A DNA stretch of 64,000 bases from Opitutia bacterium. Its GTDB lineage: Bacteria; Verrucomicrobiota; Verrucomicrobiia; Opitutales; Opitutaceae. A program made the position numbers and the translations under genes. The stretch covers positions 496,001 through 560,000 of the forward strand of contig JACPIT010000009.1 in assembly GCA_016187945.1 (NCBI GenBank). Direction: 5' to 3'. Each line of letters starts with the position of its first letter. Positions within the stretch are counted from its first letter, which is position 1. Under the pieces are notes generated by a model. That model was given only the letters and a program-made list of their open reading frames with translations. It was not told the origin of the DNA and made no database searches. This document shows, piece after piece, positions 23,148 to 61,350 of this stretch.

Positions 23148-24020
23148 ATGATTTACCTGCTCGGAGGTTCCGGTTACGTCGGCCACGCTTATCAAGCGCT
23201 GCTCGCGCGCAAGAGCATCCCGTTTCGCAATCTGCGCCGGGCCGAAGTCAACTACGCCGATCGCGCCACGCTCACCGAGCTCCTCCGCCGCGAGAAACCC
23301 GACTTCCTGATCAACGCCGCCGGCTACACCGGCAAGCCCAACGTCGACGCCTGCGAGCTGCACAAATCCGAGTGCCTCGACGGCAACGCCGTCCTCCCCG
23401 GCACGGTCGCCCTCGCCTGCGCCGACGCCGGCATCCCGTGGGGCCATGTCTCGTCCGGCTGCATCTACACCGGCGCGCGCACCGACGGCTCCGGCTTCAC
23501 CGAGACCGATACGCCGAACTTTTCCTTCCGCACCAACAACTGCTCGTTCTACTCCGGCACCAAGGCGCTCGGCGAAGAAGTCCTCGCCGACAAACCCAGC
23601 GTCTACGTCTGGCGCCTGCGCATCCCCTTCAACGAAGTCGACAGCCCGCGCAACTACCTCACGAAACTCATGCGCTACGCCACGCTGCTCGAGGCGACGA
23701 ACTCGATCTCGCAACTCGACGAATTCGTCGCCGCGACCTTCGCTTGCTGGGAGAACCGCGTGCCCTTCGGCACCTACAACGTCACCAACCCCGGCGCGAT
23801 CACGACCCACGAAGTCGTCGCACTCATCCGCCAGACCGGCGTCTCGAACAAGAACTTCGTCTTCTTCAAAGACGAGGCCGACTTCATGCAAAAAGCCGCG
23901 AAGACCCCGCGCTCCAACTGCGTGATGGACTCCGCCAAACTCGCCTCCGTCGGCATCCGCATGACCGAGGTCCACGAAGCCGTCGAACGCGACCTGCGCC
24001 GCTGGCGCAGCGCCAGTTGA
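23148..24020 (+). CDS. RmlD-like NDP-sugar reductase/epimerase (sugar nucleotide-binding SDR)
   Basis: In this 290-residue protein the N-terminus MIYLLGGSGYVGHAY carries the nucleotide-binding glycines. LINAAGYTGKPNVDACE matches the RmlD-type pattern (INAAAYT...D.AE), and the catalytic site is Tyr135-SGT-Lys139. dTDP-4-dehydrorhamnose reductases have this layout, but this subgroup may use another nucleotide sugar, so rmlD is not assigned. The last codons GCC AGT TGA merge into a family A repeat, which supplies the stop; RmlB ends the same way. Confidence 0.8.
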   Translation: MIYLLGGSGYVGHAYQALLARKSIPFRNLRRAEVNYADRATLTELLRREKPDFLINAAGYTGKPNVDACELHKSECLDGNAVLPGTVALACADAGIPWGHVSSGCIYTGARTDGSGFTETDTPNFSFRTNNCSFYSGTKALGEEVLADKPSVYVWRLRIPFNEVDSPRNYLTKLMRYATLLEATNSISQLDEFVAATFACWENRVPFGTYNVTNPGAITTHEVVALIRQTGVSNKNFVFFKDEADFMQKAAKTPRSNCVMDSAKLASVGIRMTEVHEAVERDLRRWRSAS

Positions 24021-24117
24021 GGTCAAAGGTTTAGGTTGAAGCAACCAACACCCCGAACGTCTCTGCTCTTCCTTTCCGCGGCTCCTCAACTTCAACCTTC
24101 AACCTAAACCGATTTTC
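24017..24117. repeat. Inverted pair of family A repeats with a short spacer
   Basis: The left arm (24017-24041) contains GTTGAGGTCAAAGG and TTTAGGTTGAAG. The right arm (24083-24117) contains CTCAACTTCAACCTTC and AACCTAAACCGATTTTC. They are inverted relative to each other and separated by about 40 bases. The left arm provides the TGA of the RmlD-like gene. The same arrangement with a longer spacer flanks the four-helix gene at 25362. Confidence 0.75.
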
Positions 24118-24127
24118 AGAGTAAAGA

Positions 24128-24149
24128 TCCCCGGAGCAAGCTCCGGGGC
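24128..24149. repeat. Perfect hairpin, repeat-like
   Basis: CCCCGGAGC AA GCTCCGGGG forms a nine-base-pair perfect stem with a two-base loop. No T run follows, so it is more likely a palindromic repeat unit than a terminator. A second, related imperfect palindrome (GAAGCAAGCTTC, 24223-24234) occurs just before the rmlB start. Confidence 0.55.
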
Positions 24150-24255
24150 ATTTGAAAAGACCTCTGCAAACCCGTTCGAGCCCCATGCAATCCACACTCA
24201 ATCCCGTTCTGCCGACCAAGCCGAAGCAAGCTTCAGGGTATCGGACCCACAGCGA

Positions 24256-25338
24256 ATGAACACCGGCGGCGCCGGCTTCATCGGTTCCAACTTCATCCGC
24301 CAGCGCCTGCTCGAGCAGGGCTCTCAGCCCTCAGCTCTCAACTCTCAACTTGAGAAGCTCGTCAACCTCGACGCCCTCACTTACGCCGGTAACCCCGCCA
24401 ACCTCGCCGACCTCGCGCACGACCCGCGCTACGTTTTTGCGCACGGCGACATCGGCGACGCCACTCTCGTCGCGCGCCTGCTCGCCGAGCACGAGATCGA
24501 CGCCGTGGTGAACTTCGCCGCCGAGTCCCACGTCGACCGCTCGATCGATTCCCCCGAGCCATTCATCCAGACCAACGTCGTCGGCACGCTCCGCCTGCTC
24601 AACTGCGCCAAACAATACTGGGCCAAACTCGCCGAGCCGAAAAAGAGCGCGTTCCGTTTCCTCCACGTCTCGACCGACGAAGTCTACGGCTCGCTCAAGC
24701 CCGGCGCGCCCGCCTTCACCGAGGATCACAACTTCGAGCCCAACTCGCCCTACGCCGCCTCGAAGGCCGCCAGCGACCACCTCGTCCGCGCCTACCAGCA
24801 CACCTACGGCTTCCCGACCCTCACGACCAACTGCTCGAACAACTACGGCCCGTATCACTTCCCCGAGAAGCTCATCCCGCTGATGATCCTCAACGCCCTC
24901 GAGGGAAAATCGCTCCCCGTCTACGGCGACGGCATGCAAATCCGCGACTGGCTCTACGTCGAAGATCACGCCGCCGCGATCTGGTCCGTCCTCCGCGGCG
25001 GCCGCACCGGCGAGACCTACAACATCGGCGGCTGGAACGAAAAACCGAACATCGAAATCGTGAAAACCATCTGCGCGCTCCTCGACCAGAAATCCCCGCG
25101 CGCCGACGGCCAGAGTTACACGAAACAAATCACCTACGTCCAGGACCGCCCCGGCCACGACCGCCGCTACGCGATCGACGCGACCAAGATCCACCGCGAA
25201 CTCGGCTGGAAACCCGCCGAAACCTTCGCCACCGGCATCGAGAAAACCGTCGACTGGTATCTTGCGCACCGCGCCTGGGCCGCGGATATCACGGCCACGC
25301 GCTACGCGCGGCAGCGCCTGGGCGCCGCGGCCAGTTGA
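24256..25338 (+). CDS. rmlB: dTDP-glucose 4,6-dehydratase with truncated first strand
   Basis: The 360-residue product converts dTDP-glucose to dTDP-4-keto-6-deoxyglucose. Clear signatures are [11 protein letters not shown] (3-13), [17 protein letters not shown] (139-145), Tyr166-AAS-Lys170, [18 protein letters not shown] and [12 protein letters not shown]. Two oddities stand out. First, the protein begins MNTGGAG where family members begin MKILVTGGAG, so the hydrophobic first strand is missing. No upstream in-frame start restores it; upstream codons read RVSDPQR. Second, residues 22-33 ([12 protein letters not shown]) are encoded by an inserted repeat in the loop before strand 2. The stop comes from a family A repeat. 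The enzyme may be impaired, or the start region may hold a sequence error. Confidence 0.88.
24320..24352. repeat. In-frame repeat insertion inside rmlB (family A')
   Basis: The text GCTCTCAGCCCTCAGCTC, then TCAACTCTCAACTT, encodes [11 protein letters not shown]. The same repeat occurs inside purD at 59299-59329 (CTCTCAGCCCTCAACTC). In both enzymes it falls at a surface loop and keeps the frame. Confidence 0.8.
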
Positions 25339-25360
25339 GGTTGAAGGTTGAGGTTTAGGC
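25333..25360. repeat. Family A repeat, left flank of four-helix gene
   Basis: AGTTGAGGTTGAAGG followed by TTGAGGTTTAGGCG. It includes the TGA stop of rmlB and ends just before the ATG of the next gene. It is inverted relative to the copy at 25726-25757 on the other side of that gene. Confidence 0.75.
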
Positions 25361-25361
25361 G

Positions 25362-25718
25362 ATGAACTCCGACGGCGAAACGTTCGAACAACTCGAAGTT
25401 TGGCGCCGCGCTCAGGCTTTGAGCATCGAGGTCTATCGCGCCCACGCCGAATGCCGCGACTGGGGCTTTCGCGACCAAATCACTCGGGCCGGAAACAGCA
25501 TTGCCGACAACATCGCTGAAGGCGCCGAGCGCAGCGGCAAGGCCGAGTTCAAACAGTTTTTGAGTTACGCCAAAGGCTTTGCAGGTGAAACCCGCTCACA
25601 GATGTTGCGCGCCATAGCTCTCGCCTACATCACAGAGGAGCGAGGTCGGGCCTTGGTGGACGAGCTTCGCCGTATCTCGCGCATGATTCACGCCCTCATT
25701 CAAAGCCTCGATCGCTGA
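25362..25718 (+). CDS. Four-helix-bundle protein (S23/23S rRNA intervening-sequence protein family)
   Basis: This 118-residue, mostly helical protein has [58 protein letters not shown] and [10 protein letters not shown], the pattern of the S23/four-helix-bundle family. Family members are found in 23S rRNA intervening sequences and as stand-alone genes; the molecular role is unclear, and Avd of diversity-generating retroelements has a related fold. Here the gene interrupts rmlB and rmlA and is flanked by inverted family A repeats. Its TGA overlaps the rmlA ATG (TGATG). No reverse transcriptase or rRNA is nearby, so a retroelement role is not supported. Confidence 0.88.
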
Positions 25719-26638
25719 TGACCTCTCCTCAACCTAAACCCTCAACCTCAACCGGCACGATTTCCCGCAAGGGAATCGTGCTCGCCGGCGGTTCGGGGAC
25801 GCGCCTCTACCCGCTCACCATCGCGATCTCAAAGCAGCTCATGCCGGTCTACGACAAGCCGATGATCTACTATCCGCTGTCGGTGCTCATGCTCGCCGGC
25901 ATCCGCGAGATCCTGATCATCTCCACGCCGCAGGATCTCCCGCTCTTCCGCCGCCTGCTCGACGACGGCTCGCAGTTCGGCGTGAAGTTCAGCTACGCCG
26001 AACAGCCGCGCCCCGAAGGCCTCGCGCAAGCCTTCACCATCGCCGCCGACACCGGCTTCCTCACCGGCCGCGAGCCCTCCGCCCTCGTGCTCGGCGACAA
26101 CCTTTTCTACGGCGCCGAGTTCGTCGGCTCCCTCGACGAAGCCACGAAACGCACCGCGGGCGCCACGATCTTCGGCTACCACGTCGCCAACCCAACCGCC
26201 TACGGCGTCGTCGAATTCGCGAAGGACGGCCGCGTCGTTTCGCTCGAGGAAAAACCGAAGCAGCCGAAATCCAACTACGCCGTCCCCGGCCTCTATTTCT
26301 ACGACGAGCAAGTCGTCCCGCTCGCCCGCGCCCTCAAGCCCTCCCCACGCGGCGAACTCGAGATCACCGACCTCAACCGCCTCTACCTCGAACGCAACGC
26401 GCTCCACGTCGAACTCTTCGGCCGCGGCACCGCGTGGCTCGACACCGGCACGCACGACTCGCTGATGCAGGCCGCGCAATTCGTCGAAGTCCTCGAAAAC
26501 CGCACCGGCCTGAAGATCGCCTGCCTCGAAGAGATCGCGTTCAAGCAAGGCTGGATCGATCGCGCCGGCCTCGAAGCGAACATCCAGAAACTCGGCAAGT
26601 CCTCCTACGGCGACTACCTCCGCCGCCTGCTGAGCTGA
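25718..26638 (+). CDS. rmlA: Glucose-1-phosphate thymidylyltransferase
   Basis: This 306-residue protein catalyses dTTP plus glucose-1-phosphate to dTDP-glucose, the first step before RmlB. Signatures are [17 protein letters not shown] (18-34), [27 protein letters not shown] and [15 protein letters not shown]. Family members usually begin within a few residues of KGIVLAGG. Here 17 extra residues ([13 protein letters not shown]...) precede it and are encoded mainly by the family A repeat at 25726-25757. The ATG overlaps the stop of the four-helix gene, so both start codon and leader seem to come from the inserted element. RmlC is not in the window. Confidence 0.95.
25726..25757. repeat. Family A repeat, right flank of four-helix gene, inside rmlA
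   Basis: CCTCAACCTAAACCC then TCAACCTCAACCGG, inverted relative to 25333-25360. It is translated as part of the RmlA leader ([10 protein letters not shown]). Confidence 0.75.
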
Positions 26639-49446: not shown

Positions 49447-50634
49447 CTACTCGTATTCCGCCAGCACCGTGGCATCCGCCTCCGCCGCACGCGCCGCCGC
49501 CAGCAACTCGCCCGCCTGCTCGCCCGCGAGCTTCCGCGCCGCCCACACCGCGTGCGCCCGCACCAGTGGCAATTCGTGTGCCGCGAGCTTCACGAGCTGC
49601 GGCACGAGCGACCCGTCGCCGGAATTCCCCGCCACGACGCACGCGTTGCGCAGCAGGCCGGACAACTTCAGGCGCTTCACCGCCGTCCGACGGAACACCG
49701 CCGCAAACCGCTCCGGCGTCATCTCGAGCAGTTCCCGCAACGTCAGCTCCGTGAGTTCCTCGCGCGCCACGAGCAGCGTTTTGCGCCCCTCGCGCGCGAA
49801 ACGGTTCCACGGGCACACCTCCAGGCACACGTCGCAGCCATAGACGCGCGCGCCGATGCCCGCGCGCAGCCCGCGCGGGATCGCGCCCTTGTTCTCGATC
49901 GTCTGGTAGGAAATGCAGCGCCGCGCATCGACGACGCCCGGCGCCACGATCGCCGCCGTCGGACACGCCTCGACGCACCGCGTGCATTTGCCGCACAGCA
50001 ACCCCGCCGGCTCGTCGCCGCTCGCGCGCGCGACGTCTGGCCGCAGCGGCGCATCCGGCTCGATCGCCACGCGCGTCAAAATCGCCGAGAGAAACAACCA
50101 GTTCCCGAATTCGCGCGAGATGAGCAGGCCGTTCTTCCCGCGAAACCCGACGCCCGCGCGCGCCGCGAACCCCCGCTCCAGCACCGGCCCTGTGTCGGTG
50201 TAGTAGCGGTAGTCGGTCGCCGCCACGCCGCAAAACTCCTCCAGCACCCGTCCCGCCGCCCCGAGCCCCGGCTTGATCGTGTCGTGATAATCCTCGTGCA
50301 ACGCGTAGCGCGCCCACGTGGCATTTTCGGTTGGGGATTTTCGATTCTCGATTCGGGTTTCGAGCGCGTCGCTCCCCCGGTAGTTCACGCCGAGCACGAT
50401 CACGCTCCGCGCGCCCTCGAGCACGAGCGATGCATCGCCGCGCTTCTCGACGGTGCGCTCCATCCAAGCCATGTCGGCGTGCATTCCCGCCGCGAACCAC
50501 GCGCGCAAGGCCGCGCCGCCCGCCGGCGCCGCAGAGGCGAAACGCACGACGTCGAAGCCGAGCGCGAGCAGCCGCCGCCGCAACTCCTCGCGGCGCTCGC
50601 CCGCGAGCGGCGCGGACTGCGCGAGCGCGTTCAT
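49447..50634 (-). CDS. queG: Epoxyqueuosine reductase with an in-frame repeat insertion
   Basis: This 395-residue protein performs the last step of queuosine tRNA modification, using cobalamin and two 4Fe-4S clusters. The clusters are seen in CGKCTRCVEACPT (214-226) and CDVCLEVCPW (267-276). YTDTGPVLERGFAARAGVGF, GKNGLLISREFGNWLF and C-terminal HEAT-like helices match QueG. Residues 93-105 (TRIENRKSPTENA) are encoded by a repeat (50322-50361) that resembles the sequence before glyA. They fall between ...VNYRG and WARYALHEDYH, a surface loop. The start ATG at 50634 overlaps the aroK stop (ATGA). Confidence 0.93.
   Translation of the reverse strand: MNALAQSAPLAGERREELRRRLLALGFDVVRFASAAPAGGAALRAWFAAGMHADMAWMERTVEKRGDASLVLEGARSVIVLGVNYRGSDALETRIENRKSPTENATWARYALHEDYHDTIKPGLGAAGRVLEEFCGVAATDYRYYTDTGPVLERGFAARAGVGFRGKNGLLISREFGNWLFLSAILTRVAIEPDAPLRPDVARASGDEPAGLLCGKCTRCVEACPTAAIVAPGVVDARRCISYQTIENKGAIPRGLRAGIGARVYGCDVCLEVCPWNRFAREGRKTLLVAREELTELTLRELLEMTPERFAAVFRRTAVKRLKLSGLLRNACVVAGNSGDGSLVPQLVKLAAHELPLVRAHAVWAARKLAGEQAGELLAAARAAEADATVLAEYE
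50322..50361. repeat. In-frame repeat insertion inside queG (family B)
   Basis: GCATTTTCGGTTGGGGATTT then TCGATTCTCGATTCGG. On the minus strand it reads as AATCGAGAATCGAAAATCCC, similar to the units at 61310-61350. It adds about 13 residues to QueG. Confidence 0.75.
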
Positions 50635-58444: not shown

Positions 58445-59785
58445 GTGGCTAACGATCGCCTTCCCTCCTCCGTCCTCGTCGTCGGTTCCGGCGGGCGCGA
58501 GCATGCGCTCGTGCGCTCGCTGCTCGCATCGCCCGCGCAGCCGCGCGTGATTTGCGCGCCGGGCAACGCCGGCATCGCGCAGGACGTGACGTGCGTCGCT
58601 GTCGCCGCCGACAACGTCGTGGGCCTCGTCGAACTCGCGCAGCGCGAGCGCGTCGAGTTCGTCGTCGTCGGCCCCGAAGTGCCGCTCTCACTCGGCCTCG
58701 TCGACGCGCTCACGAAGGTCGGCATCCCCGCCTACGGCCCCAAAGCCGACGGCGCGCGCCTCGAAGCGTCGAAGGTTTTCACGAAGCAGATTCTGCTGAA
58801 GTATAAAATCCCGACCGCGCCCGCCGGCATCTTCACCGAAGTCACGCCCGCGCTCGACTTCGTGCGCCGTCGCGGCGCGCCGATCGTCATCAAGGCCGAC
58901 GGCCTCGCCGCCGGCAAAGGCGTCGTCGTCGCGCAAACCCTCGCCGAAGCCGAAGCCGCCGTGCACGACATGCTCGCGGGAAACAAATTCGGCTCCGCCG
59001 GCAGCCAGATTCTCGTCGAGGATTGCATGTTCGGCGACGAGACCTCGCTGCTCGTCGTCGTCTCGGGTCGCGACTACGTCATCCTCCCCGTCTCGCAGGA
59101 CCACAAGCGCGTCGGCGACGGCGACACCGGTCCGAACACCGGCGGCATGGGCACCTACTCGCCCGCCGAGGTCGTCACACCCGAGTTGCTCGCGCGCATC
59201 GACCGCGAGATCGTCCGCCCGTCCGTCGACGCGATCGCGAGCGAAGGCATCGATTTCCGCGGCACGCTCTTCATCGGCATCATGCTCTGCTCGCCGGACT
59301 CTCAGCCCTCAACTCTCAACTCTCAGCCCGGCACGGCGACCGCCGTGCCGAAAGTCCTCGAATACAACACCCGCTTCGGCGACCCCGAGACGCAAGTCGT
59401 GCTCCCGCGTCTGAAAACCGACCTGCTCACGCTGCTCTGGCGCGCCGCCAAGGGTCAGCTCGCCGGCACGCAACTCGAGGTGCGCCCCGAGGCCGCGCTC
59501 TGCGTCGTCGTCGCGGCGAAGGGTTATCCGGAAAAATTTCCCAAAGGCGACGTCATCACGTTCCCCGCGCAGCTCCCGCCCGCCACGACGATCTTCCACG
59601 CCGGCACCGCGAAGAACGCCGCCGGCGAGATCGTCACGAACGGCGGACGCGTTCTCGGCGTGACGGCGCTCGCGCCGACGCTGCGCGAAGCCGCCGACCG
59701 CGCTTACGCGGCGTGCGACGCGATTCAGTGCGCCTCGAAATATTTCCGCCGCGACATCGGCGCGCGCCAGCTCAACCGCCGATGA
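58445..59785 (+). CDS. purD: Phosphoribosylamine-glycine ligase with repeat insertion (GTG start likely)
   Basis: The GTG at 58445 gives 446 residues beginning VANDRLPSSVLVVGSGGREH; GTG 58427 and TTG 58421 are other options. PurD joins phosphoribosylamine and glycine in purine synthesis. Signatures are VGSGGREHALVRSLL, KADGLAAGKGVVVAQTLAEA, EDCMFGDETSLLVV, SQDHKRVGDGDTGPNTGGMG and RFGDPETQVVLPRL. Between GIML and VLEYN, where the family has a short turn, an insertion reads CSPDSQPSTLNSQPGTATAV. Most of it is encoded by the repeat at 59299-59329 that also occurs in rmlB. The stop overlaps the next start (ATGA). Confidence 0.95.
   Translation: MANDRLPSSVLVVGSGGREHALVRSLLASPAQPRVICAPGNAGIAQDVTCVAVAADNVVGLVELAQRERVEFVVVGPEVPLSLGLVDALTKVGIPAYGPKADGARLEASKVFTKQILLKYKIPTAPAGIFTEVTPALDFVRRRGAPIVIKADGLAAGKGVVVAQTLAEAEAAVHDMLAGNKFGSAGSQILVEDCMFGDETSLLVVVSGRDYVILPVSQDHKRVGDGDTGPNTGGMGTYSPAEVVTPELLARIDREIVRPSVDAIASEGIDFRGTLFIGIMLCSPDSQPSTLNSQPGTATAVPKVLEYNTRFGDPETQVVLPRLKTDLLTLLWRAAKGQLAGTQLEVRPEAALCVVVAAKGYPEKFPKGDVITFPAQLPPATTIFHAGTAKNAAGEIVTNGGRVLGVTALAPTLREAADRAYAACDAIQCASKYFRRDIGARQLNRR
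59299..59329. repeat. In-frame repeat insertion inside purD (family A')
   Basis: ACTCTCAGCCCTCAACTCTC then AACTCTCAGCCC; translated DSQPSTLNSQP. Nearly identical to 24320-24352 in rmlB (SQPSALNSQ). Confidence 0.82.
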
Positions 59786-61309: not shown

Positions 61310-61350
61310 TCCGGAAATCCAAAATCGAGAATCCAAAATCGAAAATCATT
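61310..61350. repeat. Tandem family B repeat before glyA
   Basis: Units AATCCAAAATCGAG, AATCCAAAATCGAA and AATCATT occur in a row, directly before the ATG at 61352. A related copy is inserted in queG. The units form the whole leader of glyA, with no Shine-Dalgarno sequence. Confidence 0.75.

Follow-up and report, generated by a model that had tools for sequence, protein, structure and literature searches.

This study concerns a 64,000-nt stretch of the genome of an Opitutia bacterium (GCA_016187945.1, contig JACPIT010000009.1, positions 496,001 to 560,000; hereafter the window), and within it a small gene of the S23, or 23S rRNA-intervening-sequence-protein, family together with the repeats on its two sides. 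The gene (25362-25718, + strand) encodes a 118-aa protein of the four-helix-bundle type that matches Pfam PF05635 (23S_rRNA_IVP) with an E-value of 1.5e-28. Upstream of it lies rmlB, of dTDP-glucose 4,6-dehydratase type (24256-25338, +; Pfam GDP_Man_Dehyd/Epimerase), and downstream lies rmlA, encoding a nucleotidyl transferase (25718-26638, +; Pfam NTP_transferase), a location between protein genes and not inside an rRNA gene. Stand-alone S23 and other four-helix-bundle genes of this kind are annotated in many bacteria, and we know of no role for them.

The S23 gene is framed by two arms inverted with respect to each other, as the first-pass annotation of the window had reported. The left arm (25330-25362, +) is an array of tandem TTGAGG(T)-type units of 6-7 nt (TTGAGG, TTGAAGG and TTTAGG), read inward, and the right arm (25724-25756, +) consists of CCTCAA/CCTAAA units, the inverse of the left. 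These 33-nt arms are 85% complementary and form the longest inverted repeat listed for a 3-kb region, with an alignment score of 41, where the best of 200 single-base shuffles scored 25. The inverted arms are thereby confirmed as a real feature of the gene. Both arms also pair in the predicted RNA (z -2.36), and none of 100 shuffles folded equally well. The suggestion that the element had rewired the operon is borne out by the codons at its edges: the rmlB TGA stop (25336-25338) falls inside the left arm, S23 ends and rmlA begins in the overlapping codons TGATG, and translation of the right arm gives RmlA a leader that is missing from relatives with an empty junction, whose RmlA begins MNRKG. 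The element thus contains the stop of rmlB as well as the start and leader of RmlA. S23 is the sole gene inside, with no transposase in the element itself, the rest of the genome not having been searched for one. No target-site duplication is evident by eye at the rmlB/rmlA junction, and Rfam covariance models gave zero matches over 23900-25900 at E-values up to 1.

The same design recurs at other S23 genes of this genome. Seven matches to the PF05635 profile were found, and inverted arms frame six, which are all of the matches above the family cut-off. The arm sequence differs for every pair: AGTTGAG at locus L001, GATTTTC at L004, CCAAACG at L005, GCTCCAA at L006 and a TCTTTCTCTTAA-type run at L003, whose unit is not clearly seven, in addition to the rmlB/rmlA element (L002). 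The earlier annotation had expected other S23 genes to share the arms of the first, and armless copies if its idea were wrong; the design proved general (five of the six other matches lie between inverted arms), but the sequence is particular to each element. The flanks of the seventh match, below the cut-off, lack an inverted pair of this kind. At L007 (about 1300-1450), a weak S23-like match adjoins inverted CACGGAT-type repeats of another kind.

For a broader comparison, 162 S23 loci were pooled from the genus (53), other genera (29) and other phyla (80). The genus set represents 54 of the 55 matches above the Pfam cut-off, with a gene broken into two pieces counted once, as L141; match G064:C30 and five matches below the cut-off were left out. 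The other-genera loci are high-scoring matches among the matches listed. The cross-phyla loci are the best 80 of 577 S23 relatives in a scan of named genomes, these 80 coming from Verrucomicrobiota, Planctomycetota, Pseudomonadota, Bacteroidota, Acidobacteria, Elusimicrobia, Clostridia, an archaeon-labeled bin and others. Within the GTDB family, 51 of the 61 sampled genomes hold S23 matches. Arm scores of random intervals, used as controls for the genus and other-genera sets, had a 99th percentile of 30 and a maximum of 42; of the 53 genus loci, 32 reached the former and 16 exceeded the latter, and for the 29 loci of other genera these counts were 22 and 10. Among the cross-phyla loci, 53 of 80 reached the control 99th percentile.

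What the arms have in common is their period. When best periodic segments are taken, a 7-nt array is present in 52% and 50% of the flanks of S23 genes, compared with 1.9% and 3.1% of control stretches. Period 14 is likewise raised (42% and 42%), periods 8 and 15 are slightly up in the phylum-wide set (10% and 7%), and the other periods tested, from 4 to 15, stay at or below 5%. At the threshold used, both arms are periodic at 87 loci and one arm at 49. For those 87 elements, the heptamer distance between arms is 0.173 when one is read inverted and 0.547 when read direct, with 0.505 to other elements, and the inward reading is the closer in 84 of 87; the inward strand carries more G than C in 143 of 174 arms. 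Of 33 cyanobacterial plasmid records with S23, eight were examined over 120 nt on each side; arrays stood on at least one side of the gene in seven, with units such as AGTAGGG, AACAGGG, AAAAGGG, AGTCAGA and others, and in one there were none. On these comparisons, inverted 7-nt arrays often frame the S23 genes of many phyla, and each element has a single heptamer, read inward, in both of its arms, mostly unlike those of other elements. Some loci scored as without periodic arms (e.g. L123, L218) look like arrays with indels.

With the search for the stop codon of the upstream gene running from 150 nt ahead of the left array to 10 nt past its end, 60 of 85 elements have that stop within 15 nt of the array, and 34 of 81 have the downstream start no more than 15 nt from the right array; left arrays, as read from the sequences, usually start a few nucleotides from an upstream stop. 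A design in which the element stops incoming translation and passes outgoing translation fits rmlB/rmlA, but such stops are not enriched over shuffled heptamers and the idea was rejected. Among cross-phyla neighbors, PAPS_reduct (CysD-type) proteins were found at 7 of 71 upstream positions and GTP_EFTU (CysN-type) proteins at 7 of 70 downstream positions, the latter being what remained of 75 downstream neighbors once five antisense frames were dropped; nucleotide-sugar enzymes and small chains of ribonucleotide reductase are further neighbors. Both sides were annotated at 20 of the 80 cross-phyla loci, chosen by stepping down the list and not at random, with gene names read from Pfam hits. In 14 of the 20 the element separates apparent partner genes: rmlB/rmlA (L156, L176, L190), cysD/cysN (L198, L200), metK/ahcY (L169), two methylmalonyl-CoA mutase chains (L218), pyruvate dehydrogenase E1/E2 (L222), a membrane-fusion protein and AcrB (L204), thiolase/acyl-CoA dehydrogenase (L193), PGK/pyruvate kinase (L232), two CofH/MqnC-type genes (L186), an SLBB protein and Wzz (L214) and Nuo genes (L179). 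Two others are ambiguous (L166, L183), and at L162, L172, L209 and L228 at least one of the two neighbors has no Pfam match. A preference for partner-gene junctions is suggestive only, because operon neighbors are often related in any case and relatedness was not controlled for. Literature examples of S23 genes between protein genes include one between cmr3 and cmr2 of a cyanobacterium (PMC3936711) and one between the guanylate kinase and nicotinate nucleotide adenylyltransferase genes of Flavobacterium columnare (PMC5524665).

Evidence on mobility comes from junctions that are occupied in some genomes and empty in others. Eleven strong rmlA orthologues were found in 13 genus genomes, the own genome included. 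The rmlB/rmlA junction lacks the element in five relatives, four with gaps of about 4-13 nt (L083, L086, L089, L092) and one with about 48 nt and another rmlB type (L087). A sixth (L085) has a spacer of about 200 nt without S23, and in L088 no rmlB precedes rmlA. The own genome and L084 hold related S23 genes whose arms agree within each element and differ between the two. L090 and L091 hold another S23 lineage with other arms; these could have arrived with the operon, because the rmlB there is of another type. The empty site that the first-pass annotation proposed to look for in close relatives thus exists in several of them, and the junction is not one that all relatives share.

A second junction, between the ATP-binding cassette ATPase and permease genes that host L004, was readable in all 13 genomes; both genes were named from sequence alone. 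In five genomes the element stands between the stop of one gene and the start of the other; the remaining eight have no S23, with gaps from 6 to roughly 110 nt. The junction differs even in near pairs: G067 has the gene and G066 lacks it, with ATPase 0.97 and permease 0.96 identical, and the same holds for G062 and G063, at 0.94 and 0.95. The S23 proteins of G067, G068, G071 and G062 are 0.82, 0.81, 0.73 and 0.56 identical to that of the own genome, against trimmed-protein identities of 0.95, 0.91, 0.88 and 0.95 for the ATPase and 0.72, 0.74, 0.75 and 0.74 for the permease. By these identity values, with no tree, the G062 gene, whose arms are GATTGCG, is much more distant than its host genes would lead one to expect, at 0.56 against 0.95 and 0.74. 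Three S23s that are 74-83% identical and share AGTAGCG-type arms lie in different operons, at pheS/pheT (L066), gyrase/topoisomerase IV B/A (L067) and gatA/gatB (L074). The same junction can therefore be empty or occupied among relatives, as the compared sequences attest. The claim that gene and arms move as a unit of roughly 425 nt is supported by the two presence/absence junctions, the differing sister pairs and the similar elements in three operons, with movement deduced from comparison; the element may accordingly be regarded as mobile.

Arrays also occur without the gene. Within the window, a geneless hairpin (24012-24110, no strand assigned; arms at about 24012-24041 and 24084-24110) lies between an rmlD-like gene, whose stop (24018-24020) falls in its arm, and rmlB. 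At this junction the two genes are about 7-17 nt apart in five relatives, and L085 has a hairpin of other sequence. The first-pass annotation had seen this pair (given as 24017-24117) as a possible empty or decayed form of the element; the pair is real and is a geneless relative, but descent from a decayed S23 copy is unsupported, as nine geneless GATTTTC hairpins of this genome have loops of 41-178 nt that resemble neither the L004 S23 nor each other, and the idea that such hairpins are S23 deletion derivatives was rejected on that ground. A solo array missed at first reading lies in frame inside rmlB (24320-24350, +) and adds 7 residues (21 nt) to this part of the protein, compared with five relatives that have the same type of rmlB. 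Such an in-frame array recalls the palindromic elements known to insert into coding genes. Other solo arrays of the window are of the GATTTTC type (50336-50362, +, and 61315-61347, -), the heptamer of S23 element L004, and of the CTCTCAA type (59301-59325, +), that of L001.

Across the own genome, GATTTTC occurs 95 times in 49 arrays, its reversed control pattern never, and CTCTCAA 66 times in 46 arrays (control 14). All 10 GATTTTC and all 4 CTCTCAA inverted pairs less than 500 nt apart have the polarity of S23 elements; two of these 14 are S23 elements, and the others enclose short loops. Other solo arrays fall in long open frames, which read as SQLSTLN. Elsewhere in the genus, GATTTTC hits number 19, 24 and 7 in the three other genomes with GATTTTC-armed S23s, 22 in G062 and 0-4 in the other eight. 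CTCTCAA hits number 18, 14, 10, 8, 7 and 1, with six zeros, and bear no clear relation to S23 type. In samples of 400 kb each, 7-nt arrays reach 32.5 per Mb in both G000 and G003; there were none in the 185 kb of G055 or the 163 kb of G044, neither of which has an S23 match. Array counts were considered as a proxy for S23 and rejected, as they fit GATTTTC, fail for CTCTCAA and are contradicted by G004, discussed below. Geneless hairpins of S23-element polarity and solo arrays thus evidently exist in these sequences. One array in G003 (L289, 18466-18698) is a 233-nt run of TTGAGAG/ATGAGAG, far above the usual length.

The murB/ddl junction, with genes named from translation, displays such hairpins in comparison. 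Among 11 matched genomes, four have overlapping stop and start codons (ATGA or GTGA), two have spacers lacking clear arrays, and five, the own genome included, hold geneless inverted arrays of differing repeats. TGAA, a possible target-site duplication, stands at both ends in three of these five filled junctions, but stop and start must both stay intact there. In the geneless hairpins L085, L355, L356, L357 and L362, at rmlD/rmlB and murB/ddl, the repeats differ by species and both arms agree within each. The arms of one geneless hairpin seem, from this pattern, to be rewritten together. By eye, the loops of L354, L355 and L356 (murB/ddl) contain a palindrome resembling repetitive extragenic palindromic sequences, GTGGGAGCGGCTTTACGCCGC in two of them and a variant in the third.

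Taken together, these observations make it probable that the S23 gene and its two inverted arrays constitute one mobile element of about 425 nt, akin to the intervening sequences (IVSs) of 23S rRNA and placed outside rRNA, in the stop/start junctions of protein operons. The element would enter tight junctions of this kind, where its insertion should be harmless, would presumably be transcribed from the host operon, and may persist and spread partly through the conservation of the flanking genes. The conservation of a heptamer in inverted arrays suggests that something reads the motif. The protein itself is under purifying selection, with ratios of nonsynonymous to synonymous divergence (dN/dS) of 0.02-0.18 in ten pairs and dS above 1 in seven of them, and must therefore do something. 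Binding of S23 to its own arrays is the favored, if unproven, possibility, because S23 is the sole protein that the element carries and its solved relatives in the PDB (2gsc and 2rld) have five chains each; it would then recognize the repeated motif rather than an exact hairpin pairing. S23 might draw both ends of the element together while host recombination or replication performs the strand work, the arrays being afterward homogenized through slippage or arm-to-arm copying. Geneless hairpins could be non-autonomous users of the same process.

Several results weigh against this proposal. Movement is deduced and has never been observed, and the element encodes no catalytic protein; S23 itself is neutral (median pI 6.6), and a basic nucleic-acid binder resembling Avd was rejected for that reason. 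In-register identity of the arms is 0.811 against 0.797 with shuffled units, so that arms pair unit by unit no better than chance arrangements; 2% of the 57 elements kept out of 87 reached p < 0.05, and hairpin register was discarded as a conserved feature. A "code" relating heptamer to protein, examined in the 121 of 162 loci kept by array score, length and freedom from stops, was likewise rejected, as its correlation (Mantel r -0.264) is largely orthology and hence partly vertical inheritance. The 76 pairs of at least 0.55 identity flagged as having a different neighborhood lend weak independent support, with a mean heptamer distance of 0.423 against 0.50-0.53 below 0.5 identity. L173 and L176, one of four close pairs that do not share neighbors, have differing heptamers (distance 0.52). 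CTCTCAA arrays do not track S23 type, with 18 hits in G065, which lacks such arms, and AGGAGTC has three hits in 13 genomes, at S23 loci only (L110, and 81 nt past the S23 match of L122), and is not dispersed. Among the wider set, 26 of 162 loci have no periodic arm at threshold, and just 8 of 80 cross-phyla loci reach the 99.9th percentile of controls. Finally, G004 has 37.5 arrays per Mb in a 400-kb sample and no S23 match, which counts against any model that relies on S23 alone.

The first alternative holds that S23 is a resident regulator and not mobile, the arrays being RNA signals at operon junctions where S23 binding tunes translational coupling or mRNA processing, distributed by old vertical inheritance and losses. 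It is supported by shared neighborhoods: among 36 S23 pairs with an identity of at least 0.70, 32 have the same neighbors, the flanking proteins being clearly homologous in the 35 high-identity pairs inspected; much of the pattern is therefore vertical inheritance, which also tells against frequent movement. A regulator would equally account for the purifying selection, the separation of subunit or pathway partners, the predicted pairing of the arms in RNA, and the codirectionality of S23 with both neighbors at 48 of 68 scored cross-phyla loci (32 of 79 in the own family, a count probably distorted by antisense open frames in GC-rich DNA). A study of Xanthomonas and Nostoc heptamers, which describes them as mostly transcribed and near start and stop codons, points the same way (PMC4692102). 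Against it stand the second S23 lineage in the same rmlB/rmlA junction, the disagreement of S23 and host-gene identities at the ATPase/permease junction, the one S23 type with one heptamer in three unrelated operons, and the absence of the element from close relatives. On balance, a purely resident regulator is considered unlikely.

An equally improbable alternative makes the heptamer arrays the primary spreaders, host replication or some other factor driving a tandem-repeat process in which S23 genes are passengers caught between two arrays. The G004 densities speak for it, as arrays can therefore exist where no S23 was found; so do the solo arrays, some of them in frame within open frames, and the mutually dissimilar loops of the nine geneless hairpins. 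The G004 arrays (L258-L277) include one of 147 nt with a GTCATTG-type unit (L261). Against it, S23 genes are framed far above chance in distant phyla, the 14 closely spaced inverted pairs of two own-genome heptamers enclose either an S23 gene or short loops, and the two other S23-free genomes sampled are without arrays in 0.35 Mb.

A retroelement dependent on reverse transcriptase, with S23 acting on an RNA copy as Avd does in diversity-generating retroelements, is very improbable and in this genus largely refuted. Avd and S23 (2GSC) are treated as structurally related in PMC10053308, and the element is presumably transcribed with its operon; yet the reverse transcriptase family RVT_1 has no match in the own genome, although S23 matches there number seven and the arrays of two heptamers 95, and a retro-mechanism was rejected on that ground. 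An RVT_1 match is present in 3 of 13 genus genomes, and S23 is not basic. That the arms are a chance or artefactual association of low-complexity sequence with a small gene is scarcely credible, for although they look like simple sequence and mismatched flank pairs of different elements also out-align shuffles, controls reach 2-3%, the excess is specific to period 7 and its double, and the inverted reading almost always wins.

The proposed mobile element has its closest known counterpart in the S23-coding IVS of Coxiella burnetii, which is described as 428 nt long; its ends form a 28-bp stem, and its S23 open reading frame (ORF) is preceded by tandem heptamers, the first of which holds an RNase III site (PMC4990558). 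The rmlB/rmlA element shares the S23 ORF, the size (about 425 nt), pairing terminal inverted repeats and heptamers, and, as with such IVSs, a sporadic occurrence among bacteria and carriage in a host transcript. IVSs lie in rRNA and are excised by RNase III, however, whereas this element lies between protein genes; it resembles an IVS in structure, and membership is not claimed, given its place outside rRNA. Bacteria of the candidate phyla radiation also carry S23 ORFs in rRNA insertions, in a report whose searched text does not mention heptamers (PMC11270868).

Heptamer repeats already have a literature of their own, in which they figure as quadruplex, regulatory or plasticity sequences. In PMC4692102, the GGGAATC repeats of Xanthomonas and the GGGGA(C/T)T repeats of Nostoc are 7-nt G-rich sequences described as quadruplex-forming, with 70 and 75 convergent inverted pairs in two Xanthomonas genomes and a preference for positions between aligned ORFs and within 50 bp of stop codons (sense strand) or of ORF starts (antisense strand); S23 is not mentioned in the text searched. 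The geometry with respect to start and stop codons is the same as that of the S23 arrays, and the Xanthomonas repeats likewise pair convergently. TAACTGA repeats of Beggiatoaceae, cyanobacteria and Bacteroidetes, direct repeats with a suggested translational role, likewise form heptamer arrays that are for the most part intergenic and in many cases end directly ahead of a start codon, and the text searched on them mentions neither S23 nor four-helix proteins (PMC4679880). Among the open-licence matches listed, with subscription papers and preprints beyond reach, no title joined S23 to heptamers outside rRNA.

With insertion sequences and their miniature inverted-repeat transposable elements, the S23 elements share short inverted ends common to gene-bearing and geneless copies and empty sites in relatives, but they have no transposase inside and their ends are tandem arrays that vary per element. 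With diversity-generating retroelements they share a structural relative of S23, Avd, according to PMC10053308, but the own genome has no reverse transcriptase match. It is tentatively conceivable, though doubtful, that S23 genes with inverted heptamer arrays form a distinct and very widespread class of mobile elements, lacking transposase and reverse transcriptase and residing at the stop/start junctions of core operons, each with a private heptamer whose two arms are rewritten together, and that rRNA IVSs, cyanobacterial heptamers, GGGAATC and TAACTGA repeats are all faces of it. Were S23 and heptamers one element, S23 would gain a predicted ligand in its own heptamer and the repeats a predicted partner. 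The placement between partner genes such as rmlB/rmlA, cysD/cysN and pheS/pheT would then bear on the tolerance of operons to insertions, and the IVS of 23S rRNA would become one case of a general element.

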